Assembly: GCA_017475035.1 (NCBI GenBank)
Contig: JAFVGK010000117.1
Span: 62,001-126,000, forward strand
DNA from: Blautia sp.
GTDB lineage: Bacteria; Bacillota; Clostridia; Lachnospirales; Lachnospiraceae
Direction of reading: 5' to 3'
Length of the DNA: 64,000 bases
Below the pieces are notes generated by a model. That model was not told the origin of the DNA. It did no database searches and saw nothing but the letters and a program-made list of their open reading frames with translations. The translations under genes were made by a program, and so were the position numbers. Below, in pieces: positions 1,355 to 20,896 of this stretch (its first letter is position 1; every line of letters begins with the position of its first letter).

Positions 1355-2587
1355 TCATACGTCGGTCATTTTCTGTTTCTTCACTGCTTCCGCCAGCACT
1401 CCCTGCTGCAGAATTGCCGCCGCGAGGGCGATGGCTGTCAGGATAAAATAGGAAACGGTATAATTGCCCAGGTGATCCGCGAGATATCCCGGCACAATGC
1501 CAAAGGTGAGAGACCCGAGCATATAGATTATCTGAAACAATTTTACCGCATCGGCATAATATTCTTCATGAGCTGTCCCGGCCGCCAGCTCGGAAAGTCC
1601 CACCGAGAGCATCGGGAAACCCAGCCCCAGAAGAAGCATCGCCGCATAAGCCATGGTTTTATTTCCCGGGATGCAGATCGCGCACAGCAAAGCAGCAAGG
1701 ATATAACTTCCGTGAAAAAGTGATCCTGAAAGAACCTTTCCCAGCAGATCCGCGGCAAAACCGTAGATACATTTCCCCAGGACCAGCGCCAGTCCCATAA
1801 AGGAGATCATCAAGGCTACCGCCTCCGGAGAAAATGTTTTCTCTTTCAGCAGCACCGCAAGAAACGGAGAAACGTTGAAGCTGGCTCCGGTCAGGAAAAC
1901 GCCAAGGATCAGCAGATGTTTCTCCCTCTGACCGACATGAAAGAGCTCCTTTTTTTCCTTCCGATGACTGATCTTCTCCTGTCTTGCCTTTCGGACCTCT
2001 TCCTGTTTTTCCGGGCTTGGATAATCCCGCACCAGCGTAAACACAACAGCGGCTGCCAGCAGCAGAAAGACTGCTTCCAGGAAGAAGCTCAGCTCCATGG
2101 AATGAGACTCGATCACCCTTGTAATCAGCGGAGACGCGATCACTGCTGAAAGACCTGTCCCGGCGGCACAGATGCCTAAGGCCAGCCCTTCGTGTGTATC
2201 AAACCACCGCTTGATGATGACGGAAACCGTCACCATGCCGCCCAGTGCGTAGGAGATCCCCGAAAGAGCCATAGCCGCGGCATATGCCGGAAAGGATCCT
2301 GCCAGTCCAAAAACGACAAATGCAATTGCGGCAATTCCGATTGCAGTCGTCAGCGCAAACCGCACATCCACTTTCCGTACAATGGGAACGACCAGAAACA
2401 TAAAAATGAGAGTGGCAAAATTCCGCATCATCAATATCATGGAGAGCTGCGCATTTGTCAGCCCTCCACGGGAAATCAGATATGGCGTGTAAACATTAAA
2501 ACCCGTAATCAGTAAGCCGCCGGTACAGAATAAAGCAAGTGTACAGGCAAGGCAGATCACCCATCGATTCCGTTTTCTTTCTGTCAT
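1355..2587 (-). CDS. MFS transporter (last gene of sigma-54 operon 1)
   Basis: A 410-residue protein with about 12 hydrophobic segments and a large basic cytoplasmic loop in the middle (KARQEKISHRKEKKELF), the usual major facilitator layout. The first helix follows a short basic N-terminus (MTERKRNRW). I chose the ATG at 2587 because it overlaps the stop of the upstream permease gene as TAATG, which implies translational coupling; an in-frame ATG 11 codons upstream lies inside that gene. It is the last gene before the terminator at 1163-1195. It probably moves the substrate or a product of the pathway; the cargo cannot be read from sequence. Confidence 0.85.
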   Translation of the reverse strand: MTERKRNRWVICLACTLALFCTGGLLITGFNVYTPYLISRGGLTNAQLSMILMMRNFATLIFMFLVVPIVRKVDVRFALTTAIGIAAIAFVVFGLAGSFPAYAAAMALSGISYALGGMVTVSVIIKRWFDTHEGLALGICAAGTGLSAVIASPLITRVIESHSMELSFFLEAVFLLLAAAVVFTLVRDYPSPEKQEEVRKARQEKISHRKEKKELFHVGQREKHLLILGVFLTGASFNVSPFLAVLLKEKTFSPEAVALMISFMGLALVLGKCIYGFAADLLGKVLSGSLFHGSYILAALLCAICIPGNKTMAYAAMLLLGLGFPMLSVGLSELAAGTAHEEYYADAVKLFQIIYMLGSLTFGIVPGYLADHLGNYTVSYFILTAIALAAAILQQGVLAEAVKKQKMTDV

Positions 2588-3906
2588 TATGCAATCCCCA
2601 GGCTTGTCAGCAGCATGCACAGCGGTACCTGGATCAGGAAGGAAACTGCGACCGGGCAGATAACTGTGCAGAAGCAGACATATTTATAAGCATCCTTATG
2701 GTTCGTTCCGCAGACATTAAAGACCGCCAGCAAGGCACCGGAATGCGGAAGCGTATCCAGCCCCATAGCCGCCTGTGACAGGATACGATGCATAAAGCCG
2801 ACATTATAGCCTTGCGCTCCGTATTCCAGGAAAACATTTCCCAGCGTCTGCATCGTCAGGTTGATCGAGCTGGTCGCAGAACCAAGAATCAGTGAAAATA
2901 CATTCGCCGCAATCGCCGCCAGCAGATATGGGTTAATCCTTGTGTTGGAAACAAAATTCAGGGCGGCATCATAAACCGGAGTCCGAAGCACCACCGCGCC
3001 GAAACCTACGATAACAGCGGTATTGACCAGGACCATGACCGAGGTCTCTGCACCTTCTCCCCAGGCGTGAATCCATTGTTCCACCGAAAGCTTCTTAAAG
3101 AAGAGAACGATGGAGAGAGCAATTCCCAGAAGCAGGGCGGCTTCTGCGCTCAAATGGAACAGGTTGAAGGAAAAGATGATGACGGCAATCGGGAGAATCG
3201 CCAGACCAATATGAGGAAGATTCTCATGGATCGCGGCATTCTGGATCTTTTTATCCTCAAATACAATCCCTGCAGCCGACAGCTTCTTTGCATTGTAATT
3301 GATATAAAGCGTATTGATCACCGCCACAATTCCCGCAAAGACAAAGCCGGGAACCGCGCCGGCCATAGAGCTGGTGCCAAGAGCCGCCATCGGGATCAGG
3401 TTCGGCGCCTGCGCCGAACCTGGCGATACCGTCGCGACGGTCCAGACACTGTAGCAGAAAACAGCCGGAAGAAGCCGTTTGCTGATATTTGCCTTGGCAA
3501 AAAGCTGGATCGCGATCGGGTAAACGCAGAATATCAGAACGAAGGAGCTGATACCCGACATCGTAAGCAGGTAGGAGGCAATCAGAATCGGAATAACCGG
3601 GTTGGATTCCCCGAAAATTTTTCCGAGGAAGTCAGCAATCGCAGTCGCCGCCCCGGTATCCTGGTATATTTTTCCAAAAATTGAGCCTTCCGCAAAAAGC
3701 ATCAGCCAGGTCGCTACATAGGTTCCTGTTCCGGCTGCCCAGCTGTTTTTTAATCCATCCCAGACATTAATTCCGCAAAAGAGGCAGACAATGACCGTAG
3801 AAATCGCACTGTAAAGGATGATGTTCCAGCCTTTATACGCCAGGAACATCAGCACGGCAATCGCGATCACCAGCCCCAGAATGGAAAGAGGCAGATTTGT
3901 TCCCAT
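2587..3906 (-). CDS. GntP-family organic acid permease (copy 1)
   Basis: A 439-residue, highly hydrophobic protein with 11-12 helices, matching in length and texture the gluconate:proton symporter (GntP) family. Family traits include the GTGTYVATWLMLF-type stretch and SGALLAVFNVCGTNHKDAYKY near the C-terminus (compare HSSGLFLVYDLLGLNHKNAYRH in the paralogue at 11413-12732). The start has GGAGAAA upstream and lies 3 bases after the reductase stop. GntP proteins import gluconate, hydroxybutyrate and similar hydroxy acids, which fits a hydroxy acid as inducer or substrate here. The two permeases are clearly diverged. Confidence 0.88.
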   Translation of the reverse strand: MGTNLPLSILGLVIAIAVLMFLAYKGWNIILYSAISTVIVCLFCGINVWDGLKNSWAAGTGTYVATWLMLFAEGSIFGKIYQDTGAATAIADFLGKIFGESNPVIPILIASYLLTMSGISSFVLIFCVYPIAIQLFAKANISKRLLPAVFCYSVWTVATVSPGSAQAPNLIPMAALGTSSMAGAVPGFVFAGIVAVINTLYINYNAKKLSAAGIVFEDKKIQNAAIHENLPHIGLAILPIAVIIFSFNLFHLSAEAALLLGIALSIVLFFKKLSVEQWIHAWGEGAETSVMVLVNTAVIVGFGAVVLRTPVYDAALNFVSNTRINPYLLAAIAANVFSLILGSATSSINLTMQTLGNVFLEYGAQGYNVGFMHRILSQAAMGLDTLPHSGALLAVFNVCGTNHKDAYKYVCFCTVICPVAVSFLIQVPLCMLLTSLGIA

Positions 3907-3909
3907 CGT

Positions 3910-4851
3910 TTATTTCTCCACCGCGATACCGCACATCTTTGTGCCGGACCACTTTTCATATGTATTCTGAACCAGGATGCAGTCTTCCTTTCCGCCGGCT
4001 TCCGCAATCGGAATATTCCACACCTGTGCGGTTGTCTGTCCAAAGAACGCCGGAATATTCAATTCCTTCGCAGTAGTGTTGAACAAACCGATGTCCTTGT
4101 ACATCAGCTCCAACGCAAAGTTCCATTTCTTTCCCTTAAAGAAGAGATTCGGGAACTTCGTCGTGGAAGCATTGGAGGAGCCGCCGGAGGACGAGATAAC
4201 CTTGATAGCCGTTTCCGGGTCGATGCCGGCCTTGCCGCAGACTGCCACCGCTTCTGTCGTTGCCGCTGCGCAGCAGGCGGAAAGGAAATTGTTGGCACAC
4301 TTGATCATGTCACCGGAGCCGCTGGGTCCGATGTACATAACCTTCTCCGGATTGCCAAGCGTATCCAGGATCGGACGGCATTTTTCAAAAACCTCTTTCT
4401 TTCCGCCTACCATGATGGTGAGCGTCTGGTTTGCTGCTCCGCCGACGCCGCCGCTGACCGGGCAGTCAATGATATCCATTCCGTGTTCTTCCAGGATGGC
4501 GGCCAGTTTCTTCGTGCTCATCGGATCAGCGCTTGTACAATCTACAATGATTGTCCCCGGTTTTGCATTTGCGAGGATGCCGTCTGCCCCAAGCACCAGC
4601 TCTTCGACCTGCTGGGACTTCGGAAGGCTCAGGACAAAATGGTCACATTTCTTGATCATATCAGCCTGTGAAGTGCTTCCTTCGGCTCCCTTTGACAGCA
4701 TCTCATCGATCGCAGCCTGCTTTTCCGCGGTTCTTGCCGGGCGGAAGGTCGGAAGCACGATCTTCCATCCATCCTTCACCATGCCCTGGCACATTGGCAA
4801 GCCCATATTTCCCAATCCGATAAAACCGATTTTCGCTTCTTTCAGTTCCAT
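3910..4851 (-). CDS. NAD(P)-dependent beta-hydroxyacid dehydrogenase (HIBADH / tartronate semialdehyde reductase family)
   Basis: A 313-residue member of the 3-hydroxyisobutyrate dehydrogenase family. It shows the N-terminal dinucleotide fold GFIGLGNMGLPM (residues 9-20), the substrate loop DCPVSGGVGGA, and the catalytic lysine with its following asparagines in GDMIKCANNF. The family interconverts beta-hydroxy acids and semialdehydes in the cytoplasm. Paired with an HpcH/HpaI aldolase in the same operon it recalls GarL/GarR, where the aldolase releases tartronate semialdehyde and the reductase makes glycerate; that role is inferred. AAAGGA stands before the ATG. Repeat D fills the gap to the upstream gene. 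Confidence 0.88.
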   Translation of the reverse strand: MELKEAKIGFIGLGNMGLPMCQGMVKDGWKIVLPTFRPARTAEKQAAIDEMLSKGAEGSTSQADMIKKCDHFVLSLPKSQQVEELVLGADGILANAKPGTIIVDCTSADPMSTKKLAAILEEHGMDIIDCPVSGGVGGAANQTLTIMVGGKKEVFEKCRPILDTLGNPEKVMYIGPSGSGDMIKCANNFLSACCAAATTEAVAVCGKAGIDPETAIKVISSSGGSSNASTTKFPNLFFKGKKWNFALELMYKDIGLFNTTAKELNIPAFFGQTTAQVWNIPIAEAGGKEDCILVQNTYEKWSGTKMCGIAVEK

Positions 4852-4877
4852 AATCTTATCCTTTCTGTCTCATATTC

Positions 4878-4939: not shown

Positions 4940-5725
4940 TCATTTATTCGCGTTTTCTTCCTTCACTTCCCGGATCGCTTCCTTCAGGATCGGGACACCC
5001 ATGGTGATCGCATGGATGCCCAGTGTGCTCACGATCTCAAAGACCTCCGCAACCTCCTGCCAGGAAGCGCCTTCATCCAAAGCCCGCTCAATGTGGTATT
5101 TCAGTTCCGATCCATGAAGGGTTACCGGCGCGGCATGCACCGCGACATAGAGAAGCTCCTTCTCTTTTGCCGTCAGGGTTCCGGATTTCCAGGGCACATT
5201 TTCAAATTTCGTAAAGGTCTCGAAATAGTCTGCGTCAAGGCGAAGGATGTTTTCCTTTTCCTGCGTCCAGTAGCCGTTGTGGGAATCCATATATGCCTGC
5301 TTCAGTTCCTTCTGCCTCTCGGTTAATTCCCCGGCCATCAGATAAATGCCTCGATTCTGGCAGGCCTCCATCAGAAGCGGAACCCCAAGCGCATAGCTGC
5401 AGGTTCCGACCATGCTGGTGATTTCCAGGGTTTCCAGGATTTCCCGCACACTGATGCCCAGCTGCAGGGAATGCTTCATATGATTCTTCAGTCCGTTCGC
5501 GTTCAGGCAGCCCGTCACGCTGTCGATGGCGACACAGATCAGCTTGCGCATCTTAATATCCAGAACCTGGCGTTTTTCGGCCACGGAAGAATAATCCGCG
5601 TATGCGTCCACGATCTCTTCGTCCAATTCCAGGATCGTATCCCACATCGCGCTCCACTTCCATGCTCCTCTCGCGTCAATAAAGTGCTGCCTGACCTCTT
5701 CCTGGCGAGGTGTCCATTCGCTCAT
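4940..5725 (-). CDS. Carboxymuconolactone decarboxylase family protein, two domains
   Basis: A 261-residue, all-helical protein built from two tandem CMD/AhpD-type repeats (about residues 40-125 and 165-250). Each carries the family core (CLNANGLKNHMKHSLQLG, then TLHGSELKYHIERALDEGAS). The AhpD redox CxxC is absent: the first repeat keeps one Cys and the second none. A peroxidase role is therefore unlikely and a decarboxylase, lactonase-like or accessory role is likelier. GGGGGAGAG precedes the ATG. It lies between the ene-reductase and hydroxyacid dehydrogenase genes. Confidence 0.82.
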   Translation of the reverse strand: MSEWTPRQEEVRQHFIDARGAWKWSAMWDTILELDEEIVDAYADYSSVAEKRQVLDIKMRKLICVAIDSVTGCLNANGLKNHMKHSLQLGISVREILETLEITSMVGTCSYALGVPLLMEACQNRGIYLMAGELTERQKELKQAYMDSHNGYWTQEKENILRLDADYFETFTKFENVPWKSGTLTAKEKELLYVAVHAAPVTLHGSELKYHIERALDEGASWQEVAEVFEIVSTLGIHAITMGVPILKEAIREVKEENANK

Positions 5726-5803: not shown

Positions 5804-7717
5804 TTACAGTTCCAAACCGGCAACAGTGCCGTTATAAATCGCATTCAGAGCATTCGACGCCTTCTGCGCATCGCCAAGGACGATGACTTTGCCGTCAAAA
5901 TCCTTCAGCTCTGCTTCCAGCGGATTGTTCGGGCGGCATCCAAAGGCAAGGACCACGGTATCAAAGCCGCCGATATGTACCAGCTCGCCATCTTTCTCAT
6001 AATCCACTCCGTCGGGATAGACATGCCTGACGGTCGCGGAGGTCAGGAGTTTTGTTCCGTGTTCGTTTAAGCGTTCCAGAAGAAGCTTCCTGGTTGCCGG
6101 ATGATCCTGGATCGCAATGACATCCTGCATCTCAATGACTGTCACATCATATCCATGCTCTCCCATATAATCGGCCGTCTCCGCACCGACCAGGCCGCCG
6201 CCCAGGACGAGAGCCTTCGTTCCGGGAGCTGCCATGCCGTTGAGCACTTCCCGGTTCGTCACACAGCCGGCATCCCGAAGTCCGGGGATGCTGCCTGGCG
6301 CAAGCGGGACGCCACCGGTCGCGAGAATGACGACATCCGGCGCGTAGGCCTTGATCATCGCCGCATCCGCTTTCGTCTCCTGGAGCATTTCCACTTTGTA
6401 TTTCCGGCACATATTCACATAATACGTAATAGCCCGCGCAAGATTCTGCTTATGCGGAGGCACGCTTGCCTGGCAGAACTGGCCGCCCGGAAGCATTCCT
6501 TCGTCCACGAGCCGGACCTGATGACCACAGGCAGCGGCCACCCAGGCCGCATTGAGACCTGCAGGACCGGCACCGACGACCAGGACGCGCTTCGGTTCTT
6601 TCGCCGGAGTAATCTTCATCGTTGTCTCGCGCATCGAGAAAGGATTGATCATGCAGCCGCGGAAAATCCCGCCGTGCCCATAATTATCATAGCATCTCTG
6701 CAGGCAGGCAACACATGGCGCAATCTCATCCTCCAGTCCGGCAGCTGCCTTATTGACAAAATCCGGATCAGCGAACAACGCCCGGCCGATCGTAATGAAG
6801 TCTACCTTTCCCTTCCTGAGGAGCATCTCCGCGTACTCCGGTTCATTGATGCGTCCTGCCACAGCGACGGGAATCTCCACCACGGAGCGTACCTCTTCAG
6901 CCGGATCCACGTTGTAGCCGGTTTCCACGGCTGCCGGGGCAATGCCGTACCCCACGCCGTTCATACCGCCGGAGACATTGATGAGATCCGCCCCGGCATC
7001 CTCCAGAATCATCGCGATCGTGGCTGTGTCGCGTGCATGGTTGCCATCCGAAACCATATCGTCACCGTTCAGTCTGACGCTGACGGGGAAGTCCCTGCCG
7101 CACTCACGTTTGATTCCCTCAATGATTTTTACCGCTGCCCTCGTTCTTCCTTTGATGTTTCCGCCAAACTCATCCGTCCTGCGGTTCGCGCTGGGAGAGA
7201 CGAAATCATTCAGAAGATAGCCATGGGAGCAATGGACTTCCACCATGTCAAAGCCAGCCTCTTTCGCACGCTTTGCCGCAGCAATGAAATCGTCGATCAG
7301 CTGGTAGACATCCTTTGTCGTCATCTCATAAGGCTGCACCCTCTCATCCTGCTTCAGGATCGAACTGGGAGCCATTACCTTTACGATGGAACGTCGGCCG
7401 CCGTGCTGCAGCTGCAGGCAGATCTTTGCGCCGCTTTCATGGATCGCGTCCGTCAGTCTTTTCAGTCCCGGAATCACTTCGTCTGACGCGACAGAGATCT
7501 GATGATCCGATGACCGGCCTTCCTCATTGACGAAGGCATATTCTGTGATAATCAGCCCGATCCCGCCGTCAGCTCTTGCTTTGAGATAGGCGATCAGCGG
7601 ATCGGAGATCGTACCGTCCGGATTTGCCAGGGCAGCCGACATCGGAGCCATGATCGTACGGTTTTTGATTTCCAGAGATCCGATTTTTCCAGGCGAAAAC
7701 AGTTTTTTATATTTCAT
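5804..7717 (-). CDS. NADH:flavin oxidoreductase / 2,4-dienoyl-CoA reductase-type ene-reductase
   Basis: A 637-residue, three-part enzyme of the 2,4-dienoyl-CoA reductase/trimethylamine dehydrogenase group. An FMN TIM barrel occupies residues 1-330. A 4Fe-4S cluster sits in C-x2-C-x3-C-x11-C near 335-357. FAD- and NAD-binding folds follow (VVGAGPAGLNAA near 385; VLGGGLVGAETADY near 500). The length equals BaiCD, BaiH and FadH enzymes. Such proteins reduce C=C bonds conjugated to a carbonyl, often on CoA esters, using NAD(P)H. In this operon it probably reduces or forms an enoyl intermediate. AAAGAGGG precedes the ATG. Expression should follow the sigma-54 promoter at 9241. Confidence 0.92.
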   Translation of the reverse strand: MKYKKLFSPGKIGSLEIKNRTIMAPMSAALANPDGTISDPLIAYLKARADGGIGLIITEYAFVNEEGRSSDHQISVASDEVIPGLKRLTDAIHESGAKICLQLQHGGRRSIVKVMAPSSILKQDERVQPYEMTTKDVYQLIDDFIAAAKRAKEAGFDMVEVHCSHGYLLNDFVSPSANRRTDEFGGNIKGRTRAAVKIIEGIKRECGRDFPVSVRLNGDDMVSDGNHARDTATIAMILEDAGADLINVSGGMNGVGYGIAPAAVETGYNVDPAEEVRSVVEIPVAVAGRINEPEYAEMLLRKGKVDFITIGRALFADPDFVNKAAAGLEDEIAPCVACLQRCYDNYGHGGIFRGCMINPFSMRETTMKITPAKEPKRVLVVGAGPAGLNAAWVAAACGHQVRLVDEGMLPGGQFCQASVPPHKQNLARAITYYVNMCRKYKVEMLQETKADAAMIKAYAPDVVILATGGVPLAPGSIPGLRDAGCVTNREVLNGMAAPGTKALVLGGGLVGAETADYMGEHGYDVTVIEMQDVIAIQDHPATRKLLLERLNEHGTKLLTSATVRHVYPDGVDYEKDGELVHIGGFDTVVLAFGCRPNNPLEAELKDFDGKVIVLGDAQKASNALNAIYNGTVAGLEL

Positions 7718-7730: not shown

Positions 7731-8537
7731 TTATTTCAATTTCATATCCTTGCACTGTGACACGATCTGCTCCAGAGCATCGGCGATTACCAGCTGATCG
7801 GTGTTCAGACAGACTGCGCTGCATCCTTCGTCAATGACTTTCTGTACGTGTTCCGGTTTCTGTCCGGATGCCGGGGCTGAAGGACAAGCCATAAACCAGA
7901 TCCCATGCTTGCGGCAGATCTCTATCGTCTTTTCATAGCCTTCCTGTACGCCCTCGGGGAAGGTTCCGTCTTCACGAAGTCCGCCGAGCGCCTGGCCGTA
8001 ATCCGCTTTCCCGAACATCACGATATCCCTTCCCGGCTTTAATACCGAGATGATCTCTTCCAGATGATCAATCGCTGCCGGATCTTCGATCATCGGAATA
8101 AAGGATACTTCTTCGGCTTCCTTCATATATTCTTTCCAGTTCCGGGGACGGAAGCTCGTCGCGTGGTTGGAGCGGCAGGTGCTTGCTGTGCCATTCGGCG
8201 GATACCGAAGTGCCAGCTGTGCCTTTTGTGCCGTTTCCTTATCATGTACATGTGGGATCAATACACCCTTAACACCCATCTCCACCAGGCTCCGCATCTG
8301 CCACGGAATCACATCGGGCATGCGGACCAGCGGTGTAACGTCATTTCTCTCCGCAGCCATCACCATGACTTCTACTGTCTCACGGTCCATAATGGCGTGT
8401 TCCATATCAATAATCGTGAAGTCCATCCCCACAGCACCGGCGATGTACTGGATTGTCGGATCCTTAATATAATTAAAAAAACCAATCGGCGCACGTCCTG
8501 CACGGATCGCGGTAAAAATTTTATTTTCTCTCGTCAT
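7731..8537 (-). CDS. HpcH/HpaI-family class II aldolase
   Basis: A 268-residue TIM-barrel protein. The metal ligands expected for the family are visible as Glu in FIPMIEDP and Asp in FGKADY, with the early IDMEHA stretch typical of 2-oxo-acid aldolases such as GarL, HpaI and RhmA. These cleave 4-hydroxy-2-oxo acids to pyruvate plus an aldehyde. The frame extends 39 codons further upstream, but GGGGGTAGGAATC places the start at the ATG at 8537. Neighbours are the PPC protein and the ene-reductase. Citramalyl-CoA or malyl-CoA lyase-like chemistry is possible but less likely, since those have a different length and motif set. Confidence 0.87.
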   Translation of the reverse strand: MTRENKIFTAIRAGRAPIGFFNYIKDPTIQYIAGAVGMDFTIIDMEHAIMDRETVEVMVMAAERNDVTPLVRMPDVIPWQMRSLVEMGVKGVLIPHVHDKETAQKAQLALRYPPNGTASTCRSNHATSFRPRNWKEYMKEAEEVSFIPMIEDPAAIDHLEEIISVLKPGRDIVMFGKADYGQALGGLREDGTFPEGVQEGYEKTIEICRKHGIWFMACPSAPASGQKPEHVQKVIDEGCSAVCLNTDQLVIADALEQIVSQCKDMKLK

Positions 8538-8568
8538 GATTCCTACCCCCTGAACTATGTTCTGATCT

Positions 8569-9174
8569 TTACTTCTCTGTCGGAACGACATCCTGATAGA
8601 AGAATTTATGCTCATCAAGTACGGCCTGCCATTCAATTCCCGTAATCTTCGCAATCACGATGGTAAAGTGAGAAGGAAGCTCCGGATCTCCGCTTCCGAC
8701 TCTCGTTCCCGGCATCAGGTGGCCGCAGACGGTTGTGTCCTTATTGCTTGCCGTGCAGTGGGCGTGGACATAAGGTGTGCCATCGCCTCCCATTGAGCCA
8801 AGCATGTGCCATTTATCCTCTACTGTTTCCAGATATCCGGGAATCGTCGGGTACATTCCGTCGATCACTTCATCCGCGCTTTTACCTTCCGGCAGCTTCA
8901 CGACAGTCGTGCCGATCGTGCCCTGCAGGCTCATCTCGCACTTGCCTTCCATCTTTGCGATCACGACGTTCAGTCTCGGATCAATGAAGCTCTTATTGAA
9001 TGGAAAATGCTGATAGGTGAAATCCACGCCAGCGCCGCTTCCGTCCAGGATCACGCCTGTACGGATCTGATATTTGTCACAAATCTCATAGATCGCCTGA
9101 AGGATATCCTCTCCCGGAAGCAGCCTTGCATAGTAGACATCCTCGATCTTCCCCGCCTGAACCAATCTTTCCAT
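8569..9174 (-). CDS. PPC (DUF296) domain protein, first gene of sigma-54 operon 1
   Basis: A 201-residue protein dominated by a PPC/DUF296 fold (about residues 8-150). It shows the features LLPGEDILQAIYEICDKYQI, GVILDGSGAG and HAHCTAS, the last a likely metal-binding His pair. In bacteria the domain stands alone and its biochemical role is unsettled; structures suggest a small-ligand-binding trimer. A frame extension of 14 codons is rejected because AAAGGAG sits before the ATG at 9174. As the promoter-proximal gene it may be a ligand-binding or gatekeeper protein of the pathway (inference). Confidence 0.82.
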   Translation of the reverse strand: MERLVQAGKIEDVYYARLLPGEDILQAIYEICDKYQIRTGVILDGSGAGVDFTYQHFPFNKSFIDPRLNVVIAKMEGKCEMSLQGTIGTTVVKLPEGKSADEVIDGMYPTIPGYLETVEDKWHMLGSMGGDGTPYVHAHCTASNKDTTVCGHLMPGTRVGSGDPELPSHFTIVIAKITGIEWQAVLDEHKFFYQDVVPTEK

Positions 9175-9240: not shown

Positions 9241-9257
9241 AGCAAGCGGCATGCCAA
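9241..9257 (-). promoter_or_regulatory. Sigma-54 promoter P1
   Basis: The minus strand reads TTGGCATGCCGCTTGCT, with GG and GC separated by exactly 10 bases as RpoN requires. The predicted start is near 9230, about 55 bases before the PPC gene. An upstream segment near 9270-9282 (ATTCCGCAGAAT) resembles one at 20808-20821 near promoter P3 and could be an activator site. Confidence 0.85.
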
Positions 9258-12768: not shown

Positions 12769-13560
12769 TTATCTTCTTTGCTGCCATGCTGTGTCATTGT
12801 CCTGAGCCAGGAACTTGCCGCCTGAGCATTCCAGTACAACGCCGTCAACATAGGATGACATCTCCGATGTCAGAAACAGGGCGACGTTTGCAACTTCCTC
12901 GGGCTCGCCCGGACGATGCAGGGCAAAATTCTTTGCCACCTGGCGCACGGCCTCGGCATCTCTCCCGGCTGCAGCCTGCATAGCCGTGTTGATGGTTCCC
13001 GGAGCCACGGCATTAACCCTGATACCAAAAGGTGCCAGTTCGGAAGCCGCCATACGTGTCAGACCGTTAATTCCGTATTTGCTGGTGCAATATGCACTTC
13101 TGTACATAGGCGGCATCAATCCTCCAAAGGAAGCAACGTTGAGGATATTTCCCCCTCCCTGCTCCTTCATGATCCGCCCTGCTGCCTGTATTCCGACAAA
13201 ATACGAATTCAGGTTTGTCCTCATGACGAAATTCCAGGTATCCAGATCCAGTTCCAGAATGGACTTCACGATCGTAGTCGCCGTGTTGTTCACCCAGATG
13301 TCGATCCTGCCAAGATCGCGCTTTACATGCTCCGCAAATGCGTAAAGTCTGTCTGCCTCGCTGACATCCACGCTTTCCGTATACAGCTCGCCAAGTCCTT
13401 CCGCCCTGAATTCCTCAGCTGCCTTGTCCAGCTTCGCCTGTGAGCGGGAGCAGATCGCTACCTTGCAGCCCTCCTGCGCGTAAGCTTTAGCCATCGCAAA
13501 ACCGATTCCTTCCGAACCTCCTGTGATCGCTACCACCTTTCCTTGCAGCTTTAGATCCAT
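12769..13560 (-). CDS. Short-chain dehydrogenase/reductase (SDR) 2
   Basis: A 263-residue classical SDR with TGGSEGIG (residues 14-21), NVASFGG with the active-site Ser, and YCTSK (Y-x3-K). The usual NNAG is changed to NNTA. The C-terminus ends in a VLECSGGKFL-like FabG/HSDH tail plus a short polar extension. GAAAGGGGG precedes the ATG. Together with SDR 1 it gives the operon two separate alcohol/ketone steps or two stereochemistries. Confidence 0.9.
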   Translation of the reverse strand: MDLKLQGKVVAITGGSEGIGFAMAKAYAQEGCKVAICSRSQAKLDKAAEEFRAEGLGELYTESVDVSEADRLYAFAEHVKRDLGRIDIWVNNTATTIVKSILELDLDTWNFVMRTNLNSYFVGIQAAGRIMKEQGGGNILNVASFGGLMPPMYRSAYCTSKYGINGLTRMAASELAPFGIRVNAVAPGTINTAMQAAAGRDAEAVRQVAKNFALHRPGEPEEVANVALFLTSEMSSYVDGVVLECSGGKFLAQDNDTAWQQRR

Positions 13561-13764: not shown

Positions 13765-14994
13765 TTATTTTCTTGACTTCGCGTAGATCGCTTCCTGCGC
13801 CTGAGCCACTTTTTCCATTACCGGATCAAACATCTGGTGCAGGGTATCCGTATCACACACCTCGCTGAGTACGTCAAAGGTATCCGCTCCAAGAGCCGCG
13901 GTCGCGTATTCGGTCTCTCTCTCCAGGTCACTCATGTGAATCGGGTTGCCCGGCACACGGAAGGAGACGCCGTTCGGATAGACTGCGTTGACAATTGTCT
14001 GGCGATATGCAACCTGAGGATGATTTGCGACAGCCTCGAAATCATTGATTTTTCCGTAAACACAGTTTCCCTTGAAGAGCATCTCCGCTACTTCTTCGCT
14101 CGTATACTGTGCGAATACCCGGTTGACTTCCGCGTCAATCGCTTTGTAATCCGCGGCGCGCTGTGTCATCGTCGCCCAGTTTTCATTGGCATACCACTGC
14201 GGCTGATCCAATGCTTCACAGAAGGTTTTCCACTGTGCATCCGTACCTACCGTGATCATAAGGGATTTTCCGTCCTTGCACTTATATGCGCCGATCGGTG
14301 CGGAAGACGCATAGCTGTTTCCCATCGGCTTCGGCACCTTTCCTGTTTTCAGGTAGGAGCTGAACTGATTCTCCAGACAGAAGATCAGGGAATCCATCAT
14401 GGATACGTCGATCCTGCGTCCGTGACCTGTCTTCTGTGCTTCAATAATGCCCATCAGCGTTCCGATACAGGCCATCAGTCCGCCTGAATAATCCGCGATG
14501 GAACCGCCGCTCTTGACGGGTTCCCCGCCTTCCGGGCCGGTGATGCTCATCATGCCTGACTCCGCCTGAACCGTCTGGTCAAATGCAGCATGTCCGGCAT
14601 AGGGTCCGTCCTGTCCGTAGCCGGAAATAGAGGTAAAGACAATCCTGGGATTAATCGCTTTGAGTACGTCATAATCAATCCCAAACTTCTTCATCGTACC
14701 TGGCTTGTAATTTTCAATGACCGCATCTGCTGTCTTTACCAGTTCCAGGAAAAGTTTTTTATGCTCTTCGTCCTTCATATTCAGGACAATGCTCTTCTTT
14801 CCTCTGTTCCTGGTAGCAAAGTGGCTGCTCACGTCATTTTCGATGATGTTCCCATAGCGGGTATTATCACCGATGGGCGGATTTTCAATTTTAATGACTT
14901 CAGCGCCAAAATCGCTCAGCAGAAGCGTACACATAGGGCCAGACATGAACTGGCTGAAATCCAGAATACGAAAACCTTCCAATGGCTTGCTCAT
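13765..14994 (-). CDS. CaiB/BaiF family III CoA-transferase 1
   Basis: A 409-residue CoA-transferase with the family opening LEGFRILDFSQFMSGPMCT, DFGAEVIKIE, and a catalytic Asp in MMDSLIF. These enzymes swap CoA between acids through an aspartyl anhydride, so they can activate a carboxylic acid without ATP. Relatives act on carnitine, bile acids, oxalate, benzylsuccinate and others. AAAGGAG precedes the ATG at 14994, about 70 bases below sigma-54 promoter P2. As first gene of the operon it probably activates the imported acid. Confidence 0.92.
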   Translation of the reverse strand: MSKPLEGFRILDFSQFMSGPMCTLLLSDFGAEVIKIENPPIGDNTRYGNIIENDVSSHFATRNRGKKSIVLNMKDEEHKKLFLELVKTADAVIENYKPGTMKKFGIDYDVLKAINPRIVFTSISGYGQDGPYAGHAAFDQTVQAESGMMSITGPEGGEPVKSGGSIADYSGGLMACIGTLMGIIEAQKTGHGRRIDVSMMDSLIFCLENQFSSYLKTGKVPKPMGNSYASSAPIGAYKCKDGKSLMITVGTDAQWKTFCEALDQPQWYANENWATMTQRAADYKAIDAEVNRVFAQYTSEEVAEMLFKGNCVYGKINDFEAVANHPQVAYRQTIVNAVYPNGVSFRVPGNPIHMSDLERETEYATAALGADTFDVLSEVCDTDTLHQMFDPVMEKVAQAQEAIYAKSRK

Positions 14995-15074: not shown

Positions 15075-15091
15075 AGCAAGACTCATGCCAA
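15075..15091 (-). promoter_or_regulatory. Sigma-54 promoter P2
   Basis: The minus strand reads TTGGCATGAGTCTTGCT, with GG-N10-GC spacing. The predicted start is near 15063, upstream of CoA-transferase 1. Confidence 0.88.
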
Positions 15092-15331: not shown

Positions 15332-16444
15332 TTATAGAAGTGAATCCGCCGTTGTCCATTGACACGGCGTTTTTCGATGGAATTTCTCCCCATCCATCAT
15401 GATGGGATTGTCCGGTACCAGGTAAGGTTCTCCATTCCCGTCCATAGCTTCCAGCCACATCCGGCGCGCTCTTGGCTGCGGATGTGAAGCTACGGCAGCA
15501 AAATCATTAATGCAGCCGTATATACAGCTGCGCTGCTGTAAACGATCGATCAGTTCTTCCCTGGAATAACGGGAAAACGCCTGCTGCACTTCCCTGGTCA
15601 GGATCTCGTTGTTTGCCAGCCGCCGGGAGACATTGCAGAACTCCTCCCGTTCGAGCCAGTCCTCCCGTTCAACTGCTTCTGCAAACGCTGCCCACTGGGT
15701 CTCAGTGGCAACGGAAATCATGATCTCCTTTCCGTCGCCGCAGCGGAAATTTCCCACCGGCGCTGACAGGGCATAGTGATTTCCCCTGGGTCGGGGTATG
15801 ATCCCTGATTTCAGATACAGACTGAACTGATTTTCCATCCCGAAAAGAACCGCGTCCATGAGGGATACGTCATAAATCTGCCCGGTGCCATGAGCCAGGC
15901 GGTCAGCCAGACCCATCAAGGTCGCGATACAGGCAGTCATTCCTCCTTCAAATGTGGCAATATCTCCCCCACAGCGTACCGGTTCTCCGCCTTCCGCCCC
16001 TGTCGTGGAAACGAAACCGGACTCTGCCTGAATCGTCGCCTCGCTCCATAAATGCTCCGCGTAAGGACCTGACGTTCCATATCCTGTCACCTGTGTATAG
16101 ACCAGTCCCGGACAGAGTTCCTTCATCTCTTCCGCACCCAATCCCCTGGCTTTCATTTCGCCCGGCAGGCTGCCGTCCACAACGGCATCTGCGGATTTTA
16201 TCAGTTTGCGATAAAGTTCCCTCTGTGCCGCATCGTCCAGATCCAGGCACACTTTTTTCTTTCCTCTGTCACAGATCCTCTCAAACGGCACCTTGTGATC
16301 AGGAAGTGTTTCCTCTGAGTCATTATGTGCCATCTGTGACACACAGATCACCTCTGCGCCAAAATCCGAAAGAATCAGTGTACACATTCCGGCTGCCTCG
16401 GAAGATCCCACCTCAATAATTCTTATCTGATCCAGCGGTGCCAT
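15332..16444 (-). CDS. CaiB/BaiF family III CoA-transferase 2
   Basis: A 370-residue paralogue of CoA-transferase 1: LDQIRIIEVGSSEAAGMCT at the start, DFGAEVICVSQ, and the Asp nucleophile in LMDAVLFGMENQF. It is about 40 residues shorter, mainly at the C-terminus. The start is one base after the amidohydrolase stop, so the two genes are coupled. Family III enzymes can form complexes of unlike subunits, so a heteromer with CoA-transferase 1 is possible, or each may use a different acid. Confidence 0.9.
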   Translation of the reverse strand: MAPLDQIRIIEVGSSEAAGMCTLILSDFGAEVICVSQMAHNDSEETLPDHKVPFERICDRGKKKVCLDLDDAAQRELYRKLIKSADAVVDGSLPGEMKARGLGAEEMKELCPGLVYTQVTGYGTSGPYAEHLWSEATIQAESGFVSTTGAEGGEPVRCGGDIATFEGGMTACIATLMGLADRLAHGTGQIYDVSLMDAVLFGMENQFSLYLKSGIIPRPRGNHYALSAPVGNFRCGDGKEIMISVATETQWAAFAEAVEREDWLEREEFCNVSRRLANNEILTREVQQAFSRYSREELIDRLQQRSCIYGCINDFAAVASHPQPRARRMWLEAMDGNGEPYLVPDNPIMMDGEKFHRKTPCQWTTADSLL

Positions 16445-16445: not shown

Positions 16446-17339
16446 TTAATCCTCTATATCCAGCAGCTTAGCCGGATTCTTCTTACACATCCATTCGACC
16501 TCCTCCGGGGTGCAGCCAAACTGGATCATCTGCCCGATGAACAGCCGCATTCCCATTGCAGGATCGGCATCCCAGACCTGCGCAAGATCCGTTCCCATAA
16601 TCGTGTGCTCAGCTCCGACCAGCTTTACACAATCCACATAATCGCTGGGATCCAGATTTCCCAGACGCGGCATCGTTGTGCCATAGACATGCTCGATATA
16701 GACGCCTTTCGCGGCAAGCTCCTGAATCTGTTCCAGGGTGAACCGGCTCAGTTCCGCCAGCGGATGCGTCGCCACCATCTTTGTAATCCCCATCTCGATG
16801 GCTGCGTCAAACATCTTTGTGCTCTCTTCATAAGACATGTGTCCCGAACAGACCACCATATTATAATCCTTCACGACCTTCAGGATATCATAGACTTCTT
16901 TTTTCAGGGAGCCATCCTCATTCAGGATATCAATTCCTCCGGGACGTCCGAGATAAGACTGACACCATTTCGCGTCCATTGCAGGAAACCACACAACCTT
17001 GCAGCCGATCTTTGCATTGGTTTCAATCGTCCGCGCGGCGTATTCCAGACCGCCAGTCGTTGTGTATCCGATAACCACGCTTCCGAACACGCGGAGCCCT
17101 GAGGAAACCAGGTTATTCTGAATCAGATAAGCGTCGGATGCCGTATTGTAAAAAAAGCTTTTCAGGACGACTCCGCCCATCCCTGCATCTTCCGCGTACT
17201 TCGCGACTTTGATACTGTCAATCGGCCGCTCTGCGTTAGGATCCGGGCCCGGATGAATGTGCATATCCACGCTGCCCTTCCACAGATCATCAATCACCTT
17301 AACGGGGATCCGTCCCATCGGTTTATTTCTTAGTGCCAT
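16446..17339 (-). CDS. Amidohydrolase-like protein (DUF6282 type)
   Basis: A 297-residue TIM-barrel metallohydrolase relative. It begins with the metal-binding VDMHIHPGPDP (HxH) and carries later His residues in CSGHMSYEES, VATHPLAE and YIEHVYG, then an Asp in MGTDLAQ. These are the expected ligands of the amidohydrolase/phosphotriesterase fold. Its reaction is unknown; hydrolysis of an amide, lactone or ester of the substrate, or a decarboxylation, are options. GAAAGAGGAG precedes the ATG at 17339, so the longer frame to 17450 is rejected. It is divergent from the sigma-54 activator gene. Confidence 0.8.
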   Translation of the reverse strand: MALRNKPMGRIPVKVIDDLWKGSVDMHIHPGPDPNAERPIDSIKVAKYAEDAGMGGVVLKSFFYNTASDAYLIQNNLVSSGLRVFGSVVIGYTTTGGLEYAARTIETNAKIGCKVVWFPAMDAKWCQSYLGRPGGIDILNEDGSLKKEVYDILKVVKDYNMVVCSGHMSYEESTKMFDAAIEMGITKMVATHPLAELSRFTLEQIQELAAKGVYIEHVYGTTMPRLGNLDPSDYVDCVKLVGAEHTIMGTDLAQVWDADPAMGMRLFIGQMIQFGCTPEEVEWMCKKNPAKLLDIED

Positions 17340-17466: not shown

Positions 17467-19440
17467 ATGGCAGACCATTCTCAGGATTCCTCTTTTTCTT
17501 ATGCCGCGCCGCTCGTTCTGGAGCAGCATAGAAAAAAGCTATCGCGCCTTTATACCTTTGTCAAGCGATATGTCGGAAAAACCATTTCTCAGGCAGGAAG
17601 CATTACCTATTCCATGGCCCTGTTCAGCGGAGACGGCATCCTCCTCGACCTCTACGCAAAGGACAACCTGATCCTTGACTGGTTCGCCGAGGATGGCATC
17701 CGGGCATCCAGCATCTGGACCGGCATCGGCCGCAATGCCGTCGCCCTGGGGCTTGCCGGCAAATCGTCCCTCGCCACCGTGGGTGAAGAAAATGATTTCC
17801 CTCCATTAAAAAAATATGCCGTCTACTTCGCTCCGATCAATATGTTAAGTCCCTATGAACCCTATGAGCCGATGGAGCAATGCGGCATGGCAATCCTGGC
17901 GCCGCTCGAACACGCCTGGCCGGAGTACCTGACCATGATCCGCGGCGCTGCCCATGACATGATGATTACCCTGCAGTTTAATAATATCGCCACCATGTAC
18001 TACGAACGCAGCGGCAAGGGCGTTCTCTCTATCGATAATCTCATGAGTCCGGACGGGGCGAATCTTGCCACCTATTATAATAAAGAATTATTCCGTGTGC
18101 TGGAAACTTCCCCGATCCATATGTACTATAAGCCTGTGGAAGCTCTGATCGACCCCGCCCCCGCCAATCAGGAGCTGTGGGACATCGTCCGCAAGCATCA
18201 GACGATAGAAAATCATCCGATGACATTGTGTATCCACGGCAAAGAAATCGACGTTATCGCCTCAACAGACGCCTTCAACCAGCCTTCGATCAACGCCCAT
18301 GGCGTCACCTTCTATTTTACGACACAGCAGAAAATCACCGCCGAGCTCTCACAGAAAATGGCAAACGGCGCGGTAAAGACCTTCGATGACATCATAGGGC
18401 AGAATTCCGTCCTTCAGGAGATGATTCAGCGTGCCAAGCGAATGGCGGACACTGAGAGCAACATTATGCTCCTGGGAGAAAGCGGTACCGGCAAGGATAT
18501 CTTCGCCCAGGCGATCCATAACGCCAGCCGCCGCCGCAACAAGCCTTTTATCGCCCTCAACTGCGGCGCGCTTCCCAGGGATCTGATTGAAAGCGAGCTG
18601 TTCGGATATGAGAGCGGCGCTTTTTCCGGAGCAAAGAAAAACGGAAATATCGGCAAGTTCGAGCTTGCCAACGGCGGCACTATTTTTCTCGATGAAATCG
18701 GAGAAATGCCGCTGGATCTGCAGGTGAAGCTTCTTCGCGTCGTCGAACAAAAACAATTCATGCGCCTGGGCGGCAGCAAAATGCTGAAAGCGGATGTCCG
18801 CATTCTCGCAGCGACCAATGTCAACATTGAAGAGATGATCCGGCAGAAGCAATTCCGTTCCGATCTTTACTACCGCTTAAGCACAATGCGCCTGCACCTT
18901 CCCGCGCTCAGGGAACGCCGGGATGACATCGTGCTTCTCGCCGAAAGCTTTATCCGGAACATCTCCAGACGGATCGGGAAAGAACGCATCATGCGTTTTT
19001 CCGATGCGGCGATGGTTCTGCTGACACAGCTGGACTGGCTGGGAAATGTCCGTGAGCTGCAGAATGTCGTCGAATGTATTGTCCAGCTCTATCCCGGCGA
19101 CATGATCCTTCCGCAGTACATTCTGGATAACGTCTCCTATGAAGAACGGCTCCGCTATGAAGCAGCCAACGTCACTCCTCCCTCCGGTGAAAAGACGGAT
19201 ATCAGGCAGGATCCGATGCCGGCGGCGCCGGCTTCCCCGCAGAATAAAGTGCCGACGGATCCCTCTCAGGCTCCCGCCAGACCTTCCGCGTCACGCAGGC
19301 ATCGCAATCTGACCGAAGAGGACATTCGGGCTGCGCTCATCGAGTGCGGCGGCAACCGCTCAAACGCAGCGGTTTATCTGGGTATCTCCAGACGCACCCT
19401 GTACAGAAAAATCGAAGAATATTCCATTCAAGACGTATAA
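17467..19440 (+). CDS. Sigma-54-dependent transcriptional activator (AAA+ / Fis type)
   Basis: A 657-residue enhancer-binding protein. Residues 1-310 are a sensory region with GAF/PAS texture similar to AcoR-like regulators. Residues 310-560 are the AAA+ domain: Walker A GESGTGKD near 336, the sigma-54 contact loop GAFSGA (a Ser variant of GAFTGA) near 384, Walker B FLDEIGEM, and the RSDLYYRL and LDWLGNVREL motifs. Residues 615-657 are a Fis-type helix-turn-helix (GGNRSNAAVYLGISRRTLYRKI). AGAAAGGA precedes the ATG at 17467; the longer frame is rejected. It presumably senses the pathway substrate and drives P1, P2 and P3. Confidence 0.93.
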   Translation: MADHSQDSSFSYAAPLVLEQHRKKLSRLYTFVKRYVGKTISQAGSITYSMALFSGDGILLDLYAKDNLILDWFAEDGIRASSIWTGIGRNAVALGLAGKSSLATVGEENDFPPLKKYAVYFAPINMLSPYEPYEPMEQCGMAILAPLEHAWPEYLTMIRGAAHDMMITLQFNNIATMYYERSGKGVLSIDNLMSPDGANLATYYNKELFRVLETSPIHMYYKPVEALIDPAPANQELWDIVRKHQTIENHPMTLCIHGKEIDVIASTDAFNQPSINAHGVTFYFTTQQKITAELSQKMANGAVKTFDDIIGQNSVLQEMIQRAKRMADTESNIMLLGESGTGKDIFAQAIHNASRRRNKPFIALNCGALPRDLIESELFGYESGAFSGAKKNGNIGKFELANGGTIFLDEIGEMPLDLQVKLLRVVEQKQFMRLGGSKMLKADVRILAATNVNIEEMIRQKQFRSDLYYRLSTMRLHLPALRERRDDIVLLAESFIRNISRRIGKERIMRFSDAAMVLLTQLDWLGNVRELQNVVECIVQLYPGDMILPQYILDNVSYEERLRYEAANVTPPSGEKTDIRQDPMPAAPASPQNKVPTDPSQAPARPSASRRHRNLTEEDIRAALIECGGNRSNAAVYLGISRRTLYRKIEEYSIQDV

Positions 19441-19576: not shown

Positions 19577-19577
19577 A

Positions 19578-20510
19578 TTATTTATATTCCAGCAGGCAGT
19601 TATCAACGATGGCTTTGCCCTCTTCATTGAGCATACGATAGATAACCTTGCCCTCTTCCAGCTTCCATGCCTTGAATGTGACATGTGTATCAGGGAATGT
19701 GACAGAGCGAAGCTGTGTCGCAATATGTGTCACTCTCTCAGGCTGATATGGGATAAATGCCTGGATTGCAAGCCTTGCCGCAAAGCCCACGGAGCAAAGT
19801 CCCGGCATAAATACGCCTTTGTATCCGTATCCCTGCCCAACGGCCGGGTTGATGTGGGTCGTGTAAGTATCGCCGGTCAGACGGTAAATCGCGGCAAGAT
19901 TGTCGGCGATGTGATCCTCGCACTCAAAATCCGGAGCTCTGTCAGGATAATTCATCTTATTGGAAACATATTTCGGGCGGCCGTTATTGCCGAAGGCAGC
20001 GATCAGATGCTGGCTGCGGACTGTAGCGACCGGATTTCCCGCGATATCATACATTTCCATCTTGCACTGGTTGACTACACCTTTCTCGCCCCAGTCAAAG
20101 ATCTCTTCGACAGAATCTTCGGTCAGGAACTTGCCGCAGAGGGCGTCAATCGGTTTGTGAACCAGAAGGTCCACTCCCATGTGAAGCCTGTTCGGGATAT
20201 AACCGCCCAGAGCTTCGATGATCAGATCGCCGGGAAGCTCATTCGGCGCATACGGCACGCGGCGCTGCGGCTGCAGCTGGATCGCGTTCAGATAGGGAAC
20301 AAACGCAAATGTCGGAAGCGCTTTCAGACCTTCCGGAACGCCCTCCCATACATAAGGAAGATCATCTTTCTTCGCTCCGACGCCGAGGGCATAGAGAATG
20401 ATATCTCTCCAGGTGTATTCCATAAAACGCGGTCCTAAGCCTTTTCCGATTACGGAATCAAAGTCGGGGGTCGGAAGTGTATGCCAATCGGGATGTGTAT
20501 TCTGTGCCAT
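19578..20510 (-). CDS. MaoC-like / hydratase 2 (enoyl-CoA hydratase) protein
   Basis: A 310-residue double hot-dog protein like full-length hydratase 2. The N-terminal half (about 20-150) is the degenerate fold. The C-terminal half carries the hydratase segment GDTYTTHINPAVGQGYGYKG followed by FMPGLCSVG, matching the family's GD-x-NP-x-H...G-x-HG pattern in part. The typical catalytic Asp/His pair appears shifted to D and H of GDTYTTH. It should hydrate a trans-2-enoyl-CoA or run the reverse reaction. GAGAAAGGAG sets the ATG at 20510. It is a single-gene unit behind sigma-54 promoter P3 with a 5' leader of about 230 bases. Confidence 0.85.
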   Translation of the reverse strand: MAQNTHPDWHTLPTPDFDSVIGKGLGPRFMEYTWRDIILYALGVGAKKDDLPYVWEGVPEGLKALPTFAFVPYLNAIQLQPQRRVPYAPNELPGDLIIEALGGYIPNRLHMGVDLLVHKPIDALCGKFLTEDSVEEIFDWGEKGVVNQCKMEMYDIAGNPVATVRSQHLIAAFGNNGRPKYVSNKMNYPDRAPDFECEDHIADNLAAIYRLTGDTYTTHINPAVGQGYGYKGVFMPGLCSVGFAARLAIQAFIPYQPERVTHIATQLRSVTFPDTHVTFKAWKLEEGKVIYRMLNEEGKAIVDNCLLEYK

Positions 20511-20896
20511 GGGAAATCTCCTTTCTCTTTGTAAAAAGCTGTCGTGCGGCTTATGCAGCATGTCCCGCGTTTTAAGCGGTTGCTGCGCATCCGCATTTTG
20601 CTCATTCCGTTAGTGGGTGCCTCCTGAGTATGTGATGTTCAGTCCGGATAAATCCAGTCATAACTTCGCATGCCCACTGTCACCACACAGGTCGTTTTTT
20701 TGCTGATGCCGGCTCCTGCCGGCATATAAATATTTCTACATGTTATATAAGCAAGTTTCATGCCATAATCATTTACCACGCCGAATTTACACCTTGCAAG
20801 AGCCGTCATTCCGCAGTAAATTCGAGATAATACTATAAGCAAAATCCGCTTCCGGCAGAAACGGAGTTTTACTTATCATTAGATGAGGAGCCGAAG
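20511..20896. other. Divergent control region of the hydratase gene and rpoN
   Basis: The 386 bases contain sigma-54 promoter P3 (20750-20766) and a long untranslated leader before the hydratase gene. The segment ATTCCGCAGTAAATTCGAG (20808-20826) resembles the region upstream of P1. A possible rpoN promoter is TTGCAA-N17-TAAATT near 20793-20821; it overlaps that segment and is weak. Confidence 0.5.
20750..20766 (-). promoter_or_regulatory. Sigma-54 promoter P3
   Basis: The minus strand reads ATGGCATGAAACTTGCT with GG-N10-GC spacing. The predicted start is near 20739, upstream of the hydratase-2 gene. Confidence 0.85.

Follow-up and report, generated by a model that had tools for sequence, protein, structure and literature searches.

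A sigma-54 switch probably dedicated to its own catabolic gene cluster in a Blautia genome

Sigma-54 promoters work only with an AAA+ activator, and sigma-54 itself is usually described as one gene that serves many activators. A 64-kb stretch of contig JAFVGK010000117.1 from Blautia sp. (assembly GCA_017475035.1; hereafter the window, with positions counted from its first nucleotide) raises the question of whether this description holds everywhere. Here rpoN, the gene for sigma-54, and a sigma-54 activator gene lie among catabolic genes that are preceded by -24/-12 sites. Does sigma-54 serve this genome at large, or does it serve the neighbouring gene set alone? We propose that the latter is probably the case and that a dedicated sigma-54 switch is carried together with its own catabolic genes.

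Sigma-54 sites, activator and RpoN

A pattern search of the window gave three exact matches to TGGCATNNNNNTTGCT, all on the minus strand (Table 1). The original prediction for this locus had named these three promoters with the correct positions, strand and sequence, only its end coordinates being one base too long. Exact TGGCAT-N5-TTGCT occurs three times against 0.08 expected, and none of 100 dinucleotide shuffles of the window yielded three. All three sites are intergenic, as scored against open reading frames (ORFs) of at least 150 codons with overlaps resolved by length; they have the GG-N10-GC spacing as well as the TGGCAY and TTGCW elements, and each faces a catabolic unit. The site of the PPC unit lies 25 bp from the first start of the ORF and about 67 bp from the likely ATG, and the start of the CaiB1 gene is 81 bp downstream of its site. 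The MaoC ORF begins 189 bp downstream of the third site, with the likely ATG at about 240 bp; the overlap filter had swapped MaoC for a longer ORF on the opposite strand, hence no gene start was listed after this site. The MaoC leader (20510-20750) has about 240 bases here and 45 in Lachnospiraceae UBA3785, and an Rfam search over window positions 1-24000 gave no match at the gathering threshold.

A looser pattern with one mismatch allowed gave five matches in the window, the three exact sites included, against 4.92 expected, which is chance; the signal therefore sits in the exact sites, and exact or high-scoring sites alone were used. Across the whole draft genome TGGCAY-N5-TTGCW was found 10 times and its reversed control 7 times, which is no enrichment by itself, and the strict TGGCAT/TTGCT form was found four times, three times in the cluster and once within an ORF. 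As the looser pattern barely exceeds its control genome-wide, we build the case on the strict form and on conservation.

The activator contains the Sigma54_activat AAA+ domain, a loop of the GAF[TS]GA type and a Fis-type helix-turn-helix (HTH), and the loop reads GAFSGA, just as predicted. RpoN contains the AID, CBD and DBD domains and the RpoN box. For the N-terminal region of the activator, Pfam searches up to E 5 gave no match in the proteins of the window and of G111 (G and L numbers are our labels for genomes and loci), and a single HVO_0513_N match in UBA3785 (E 0.16) is below the cut-off. The window belongs to a draft genome of 5.08 Mb in 200 contigs (G000; the cluster is on contig C90), in which the sole full-length PF00158 match is the window activator (238 bits) and the single rpoN found with PF04552 is that of the window. 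Given that sigma-54 promoters depend on an AAA+ activator, any sigma-54 promoter of this genome would answer to this one, unless another is encoded in the missing 6%; and since no other full activator or rpoN was found in the draft, sigma-54 would here serve this regulon alone. The predicted "self-contained sigma-54 regulon" thus stands on firmer ground than was claimed for it. Activator and rpoN had been placed inside the cluster; both do belong to it and are the sole full copies found in the draft, with rpoN (20897-22285) lying just beyond the span originally drawn.

We also looked for a binding motif of the activator. Of all 6-mers, TGTGTC shows the strongest enrichment in front of the sites (present in 8 of 11 stretches against 1.6 expected, the motif having been picked post hoc from the same sequences), and the related TGTGNC, likewise post hoc, occurs six times in the 300 bp before CaiB1 and four times in the 117 bp between the activator and hydrolase genes. 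Dyad enumeration found no dyad common to more than two of 10 upstream stretches among the 40 listed.

The cluster in other genomes and the history of its rpoN

As the original prediction had suggested, the gene set and TGGCAY-N5-TTGCW sites were sought in related genomes, and both were found in G111, which belongs to another genus, and in UBA3785 (G299); each holds most of the cluster genes together with activator and sites. Between the window and UBA3785, twelve products share 82-94% identity, with 69% for the activator, 59% for the MFS transporter, 55% for CaiB2 and 50% for RpoN; for G111 the values are 55-92% for the enzymes other than CaiB2 (50%), 65% for the activator and 44% for RpoN. 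The G111 activator is followed divergently by hydrolase, bHAD, CaiB2, CaiB1, PPC, HpaI, SDR2, permease, SDR1, CMD, MaoC and OYE. In UBA3785 the genes are spread over three contigs (CaiB1-SDR2-permease-SDR1-esterase; PPC-HpaI-OYE-CMD-GntP1-MFS; CaiB2-hydrolase, activator, MaoC, rpoN), each in window order. Despite this rearrangement, PPC, HpaI, CMD, OYE, both SDRs, permease 2, CaiB1, CaiB2, MaoC and the hydrolase recur in all three genomes. The bHAD, esterase, GntP1 and MFS genes vary: no bHAD was seen in the UBA3785 stretches, and no esterase homologue and no close GntP1 or MFS in those of G111. Scattering of the genes in relatives, which had been named as a possible objection, is thus not what we see, as two further genomes contain the genes together with activator and sites.

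Scanning the 68.3 kb G111 contig, in four stretches, and 27.4 kb of UBA3785 revealed seven further high-scoring sites, four and three, respectively, all of them intergenic. Those of G111 precede a 3-hydroxyacyl-CoA-dehydrogenase-like gene, the hydrolase, CaiB1 and CMD; those of UBA3785 precede the hydrolase, MaoC and, at the end of the contig after CaiB2, probably CaiB1. The hydrolase-unit sites of the two relatives are at L025:8490 and L038:2447. No other site of that score was found in the 68.3 kb G111 contig or in the other 12.8 kb of UBA3785, one contig of which ends too near PPC to reveal a site there. When second copies were sought in UBA3785 (E<=1e-20 for the activator), one rpoN and one activator were found, adjacent to each other.

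The cluster looks rare, as few genomes were matched in family, contig and class searches. The activator is found at E<=1e-100 in two of 299 family genomes (its own and G111), MaoC at E<=1e-3 in eight of the 299, its own included, and a contig-level scan for close relatives returned one locus, that of UBA3785. The DUF6282 hydrolase is found in 13 of 391 class genomes, none but its own above 49% identity (G111 is absent from this match list). A comparison of the flanks (38 flank ORFs) gave no orthologue-level match, the best being 37% over part of the sequence, and the DNA to the right of the cluster had no match in the congener G263, an empty answer that is uninformative by this method. As regards mobile-element boundaries, the window contains no tRNA, integrases and transposases not being searched for. 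Elsewhere in G111, a 978-codon frame (L048, contig C85) has matches to two models, to part of that for sigma-54 DNA binding and to that for the activator AAA+ domain, and is perhaps a LevR-like regulator, and an ORF at the contig start (L024 83-940), about 25 kb from the cluster, resembles by eye part of a tyrosine recombinase.

The genus at large seems not to share this rpoN. In a sample of 60 genomes, 32 of which have a completeness of 90% or more and a contamination of 5% or less, PF04552 matched in 15 at E<=0.001, over the cut-off in six and in full in three (G000, G334 and G341); the other 12 matches are short and weak, and 57 of the 60 are without a full rpoN match. In a tree of 20 RpoN sequences that of the window is sister to UBA3785 (99/97), G111 and G202 come next (98/96), and the proteins of the two congeners are far removed, in another clade. 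Forcing the RpoN proteins of the three congeners together costs 136 log units and is rejected (p-AU 1.5e-36), the constrained group being defined by genus, but tested after the tree had been seen. Six branches were flagged as long, including that of G334, and elsewhere in the tree a pair of long branches meets. The RpoN tree follows the cluster and not the genus, the simplest reading of which is that rpoN came with its cluster; rpoN appears to have been inherited with the cluster, and transfer of the cassette itself is inferred. In the congener G341, the activator beside rpoN consists of two overlapping ORFs, possibly split by a frameshift (L053 12626-14534).

How common such a linkage is was surveyed in the 299 family genomes at E<=1e-20. 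PF00158 matched in 58 and PF04552 in 45 of them, 43 having both; rpoN without a PF00158 match was seen in two (G152 and G230), and PF00158 alone in 15. In 19 of the 43, rpoN lies within 12 kb of an activator-type gene, against the 0.86 that placement at random in 3.4 Mb genomes would give (these are draft contigs). The excess in genomes with a single PF00158 match (10/15 vs 9/28, Fisher p 0.052) is not claimed. G057 has two rpoN genes, each within 5 kb of its own activator (L096 7105-9561; L097 5334-11044). We inspected the surroundings in two congeners, in G057 and in every other single-match genome with rpoN except G104 (13 of 14). Gene content beside the linked pairs differs among genomes: a trimethylamine-methyltransferase-family protein in G334 (L055), aromatic amino acid lyases and a BCCT transporter in G028 (L058), a molybdenum hydroxylase in G109 (L061), a PatB-type C-S lyase and a dicarboxylate symporter in G202 (L065), and cytosine-deaminase- and allantoate-amidohydrolase-type proteins in G057 (L097). 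G025 and G071 encode a MaoC homologue (39-40% identity) near an activator, with high-scoring sites before it (L031 11642, L032 9522/12422); in L032 such a site also precedes an ORF that is acyl-CoA-dehydrogenase-like by eye.

Sigma-54 looks here more like a part of a portable cassette than like a global factor. One might speculate that across the family, probably Lachnospiraceae, rpoN, activator, promoters and a catabolic operon come and go as a set, in nutrient-specific cassettes that act as private switches, and that the window cassette also encodes an undescribed anaerobic pathway for an acid that depends on coenzyme A (CoA). To this wider proposal we give somewhat less than even credence.

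Genes of the cluster and alternative readings

Gene families were assigned by Pfam and NCBIfam profile searches (Table 1). Every NCBIfam match listed for the enzymes is below its curated cut-off (for OYE and the SDRs, among the best 25 matches), so that none of the steps takes its name from a curated model. The MFS transporter was missing from the original gene list, and of the two GntP permeases it contained, one is confirmed by Pfam; permease 2 has no Pfam match and is GntP-like only via its G111 orthologue (28.8% identity over 437 aa to GntP1). The nearest solved structure to bHAD is 2-hydroxymethylglutarate dehydrogenase (3cky). rpoN is divergent from MaoC, which alone forms the third unit. 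Short intergenic repeats of about 60-95 bp (about 4846-4941 and 10322-10403) have copies on 34 other contigs of the bin, most of them 86-98% identical, and the second contains a 26-nt inverted repeat.

Table 1. Genes and candidate sigma-54 promoters of the cluster (window positions)
Feature	Position	Strand	Basis
MFS transporter	1355..2620	-	PF07690; 59% in UBA3785
GntP-type permease (GntP1)	2587..3906	-	PF02447; 86% in UBA3785
Beta-hydroxyacid dehydrogenase (bHAD), semialdehyde-reductase type	3910..4851	-	PF03446, PF14833
Carboxymuconolactone-decarboxylase-like protein (CMD), two CMD stretches	4940..5725	-	PF02627; PDB 2q0t, E 3.9e-49
OYE/2,4-dienoyl-CoA-reductase-type flavoenzyme, BaiCD-like	5804..7717	-	PF00724, PF07992
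HpcH/HpaI class II aldolase	7731..8540 (ORF extends to 8654)	-	PF03328; TIGR02311 89 bits, sub-cut-off
PPC/PCC-domain protein	8569..9174 (ORF extends to 9216)	-	PF03479; 61-89% in relatives
Sigma-54 -24/-12 promoter before PPC unit (PPC-HpaI-OYE-CMD-bHAD-GntP-MFS)	9241..9256	-	exact match, intergenic
Alpha/beta-hydrolase esterase	9413..10240 (ORF extends to 10384)	-	PF00756; present in UBA3785
SDR1 dehydrogenase	10397..11236	-	PF00106; 83-94% in relatives
Permease 2, distantly GntP-like	11413..12732	-	no Pfam match; 85-91% in relatives
SDR2 dehydrogenase	12769..13560	-	PF13561; 82-86% in relatives
CaiB1, class III CoA-transferase with catalytic Asp	13765..14994	-	PF02515 389 bits; 89, 92% in relatives
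Sigma-54 promoter before CaiB1 unit (CaiB1-SDR2-permease-SDR1-esterase)	15075..15090	-	exact match; TGTGNC copies upstream
CaiB2, class III CoA-transferase homologue, T for catalytic Asp	15332..16444	-	PF02515
DUF6282 amidohydrolase-type hydrolase	16446..17339	-	PF19799
Sigma-54 activator, AAA+, GAFSGA loop, C-terminal Fis-type HTH	17467..19440	+	PF00158 235 bits, PF02954
MaoC-type hydratase 2	19578..20510 (ORF extends to 20561)	-	PF22622, PF01575; 82, 84% in relatives
Sigma-54 -24/-12 promoter before MaoC	20750..20765	-	exact match; identical 16-mer before MaoC in UBA3785
rpoN (sigma-54)	20897..22285	+	TIGR02395 398 bits vs 277 cut-off; RpoN box SRRTVAKYR intact

Alignment shows that CaiB1 and three relatives keep the catalytic Asp, which is also present in the four solved class III enzymes aligned; CaiB2 has T at this position in the window and S and A in G111 and UBA3785, taken together, and thus lacks the residue described as essential in class III CoA-transferases, at least in the section cited (PMC9196870). 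As CaiB2 is without it, we take CaiB1 to be the catalytic subunit and CaiB2 a supporting one, the two possibly forming one enzyme, and the two CoA-transferases of the original prediction would then probably be one catalytic and one Asp-less subunit. In the DUF6282 hydrolase H27, H29, K60, H167, H192 and D251 (HxH, K, H, H, D) are invariant in all 12 aligned sequences and resemble what we take to be the metal ligands of amidohydrolases. DUF6282 matches 47 plasmid records, three of which were inspected: two, from alphaproteobacterial plasmids (L112 7028-8673 and L113 5214-7894), have an aldolase/citrate-lyase gene and a TRAP transporter no more than about 2 kb from the DUF6282 gene, and in the third it is beside an alpha/beta hydrolase. 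These neighbourhoods agree with an organic acid, the predicted type of substrate, which the CoA-transferase and the GntP-type permease also make plausible. Class III CoA-transferases move CoA between acids, hydratase 2 enzymes add water to enoyl-CoA, HpaI aldolases release pyruvate-type fragments and beta-hydroxyacid dehydrogenases reduce semialdehydes. As a thiolase is missing from the families assigned here, the pathway more likely ends in cleavage by HpaI. To our knowledge, the set does not match the itaconate/citramalyl-CoA, bile acid 7-dehydroxylation, nicotinate fermentation or phloroglucinol pathways.

Several observations weigh against a dedicated switch. Our draft genome is 93.59% complete with 5.03% contamination, and two more of its PF00158 matches, each covering part of the domain, pass the cut-off (34 and 27 bits), at a threshold that also gives matches in all 14 control genomes. 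The single copies of UBA3785 were counted without a completeness figure for that genome. In G111, which has the cluster, rpoN is on another contig and there are four PF00158 matches, hence linkage is not universal; in the family, 24 of the 43 genomes are without it (these are drafts, with some genes near contig ends), the unlinked cases including pairs split over contigs and one on long contigs (G067). The 15 genomes with a PF00158 match and without rpoN indicate that not every such match is a sigma-54 activator. Within the window, where a site had been predicted before each unit, the PPC, CaiB1 and MaoC units have one and the hydrolase-CaiB2 unit (17339-15332), the fourth, has no canonical one; since both relatives have a site there, either another promoter is used here or the site was lost. 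TGGCAT-type sites aside, TGTGNC, chosen after looking, is absent before PPC and occurs once before MaoC; if this motif is right, the places bound by the activator would be CaiB1 and the neighbourhood of its own gene, with weaker or more distant binding having to suffice for PPC and MaoC. Lastly, RpoN (50%) is far more divergent than the enzymes between the window and UBA3785, which is unexpected under recent joint transfer and may reflect faster evolution or exchange.

One alternative is ordinary sigma-54 control, in which sites and activator are real, rpoN is adjacent by chance and serves further promoters, and the missing activators are simply unassembled. The incomplete draft in 200 contigs and the state of G111 speak for it, as do the Clostridiales sigma-54 regulons, which comprise one to many operons in the parts of that study cited here (PMC6615313). 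However, UBA3785 repeats the arrangement of one rpoN adjacent to one activator, and the 57 of 60 genus genomes without full rpoN, the RpoN tree and the linkage in 19 of 43 genomes (about 0.9 expected) also speak against it, and we regard ordinary control as rather improbable. It is very improbable that contig C90 stems from a contaminant, which would void the comparison with congeners: contamination and the absence of rpoN from most congeners would fit such an assembly or binning artefact, but the short repeats of the cluster recur on those 34 other contigs of the bin, the GC content over the first 24 kb, 50-54% per 4 kb, does not leave the 43-56% range of the remaining window, and the UBA3785 arrangement stands regardless. 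A different objection accepts the single regulon and divides its function, with MaoC and CaiB1 forming an acyl-CoA module, PPC, HpaI, OYE, CMD and permease a second function, and only the activator being shared. G256 has CaiB1 (65%) and MaoC (56%) side by side, next to ORFs that are acyl-CoA-dehydrogenase-like and ETF-like by eye, and the 30.5 kb inspected there lack the hydrolase, SDRs, HpaI, PPC, CMD and OYE; moreover, the three genomes with the cluster differ in bHAD, esterase, GntP1 and MFS. The recurrence of the eleven-gene set in those genomes argues against such a division, which we consider unlikely, albeit with some real chance. The predicted "one pathway" is supported by the co-conserved set, in which four genes are variable, and the prediction that all units respond to one signal holds by elimination, there being one activator in a draft of this completeness, with the candidate activator sites unclear before PPC and MaoC.

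A dedicated switch might function as follows. The N-terminal region of the activator would sense a signal inside the cell, probably either the acid taken up or the CoA ester of it, and the AAA+ ring would then remodel RpoN-RNA polymerase at the three -24/-12 promoters, so that the CaiB1, PPC and MaoC units are switched on together. The acid would be taken up by the GntP-like and MFS permeases and loaded with CoA by CaiB1, with the Asp-less CaiB2 as its likely partner. MaoC, the flavoenzyme, the SDRs and the hydrolases could next rework the chain, which HpaI might cleave, and bHAD would reduce the resulting aldehyde.

Relation to known sigma-54 systems

If this reading is true, a rare and often single-purpose sigma-54 beside its sole activator would help explain the patchy distribution of sigma-54 in Clostridia, for which no obvious correlation with phylogeny was noted in the part of the survey cited (PMC6615313). 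In a one-activator genome, the entire regulon could be read from one rpoN deletion, and a pathway kept in three genomes offers a well-defined starting point for learning what these bacteria feed on. Our literature search found nothing on DUF6282, on sigma-54 together with Lachnospiraceae and CoA-transferase, or on the gene set, and none of the titles found on rpoN and activators concerned rpoN-activator cassettes in this family. Sigma-54 control of catabolism in clostridia, dedicated RpoN copies (PMC11999139) and one-activator genomes (PMC3162934, PMC6615313) are already known from the portions of these papers cited; what would be new, and is undescribed in those portions, is the portable cassette of rpoN, activator and pathway as a recurring family pattern.

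Benzylsuccinate CoA-transferase (PDB 9fn0) resembles the CaiB1-CaiB2 pair in having two paralogous class III subunits, two different chains by sequence match, but is distant (E 2e-21 for CaiB2 and 3.5e-39 for CaiB1). BaiCD of the bile-acid bai operon is an OYE-type flavoenzyme of the same superfamily and is also found beside a CaiB-type protein and SDRs; however, our flavoenzyme scores 512 bits against NF041087, under the cut-off of 825, and what we take to be the remaining bai gene set is unlike that of the cluster.

The closest regulatory parallel is provided by the Clostridiales sigma-54 regulons (Nie et al. 2019, PMC6615313), whose consensus TTGGCATNNNNNTTGCT is the same and has one T more in front than the window pattern. 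There, too, one-component activators lie beside their target operons, GAFSGA is among the accepted loop variants, and targets include maoC, caiB and gntT (CrbR, YctR). In contrast, the target operons of Table 1 in that study are without this gene set, and in the sections cited one-activator species are not treated as cassettes and nothing is said about sigL being linked to an activator. In Cereibacter sphaeroides, as far as the cited part of the study goes (PMC11999139), each RpoN studied similarly controls a subset of genes together with an activator of its own, but there four paralogues share one genome, whereas here a single rpoN would be dedicated because it is alone. Lactobacillus plantarum sigma-54 resembles our system in having one activator, with a direct connection to the mannose phosphotransferase system (PTS) stated in the portion cited (PMC3162934); it serves sugar uptake by the PTS, whereas the switch described here would serve a CoA-dependent acid pathway.

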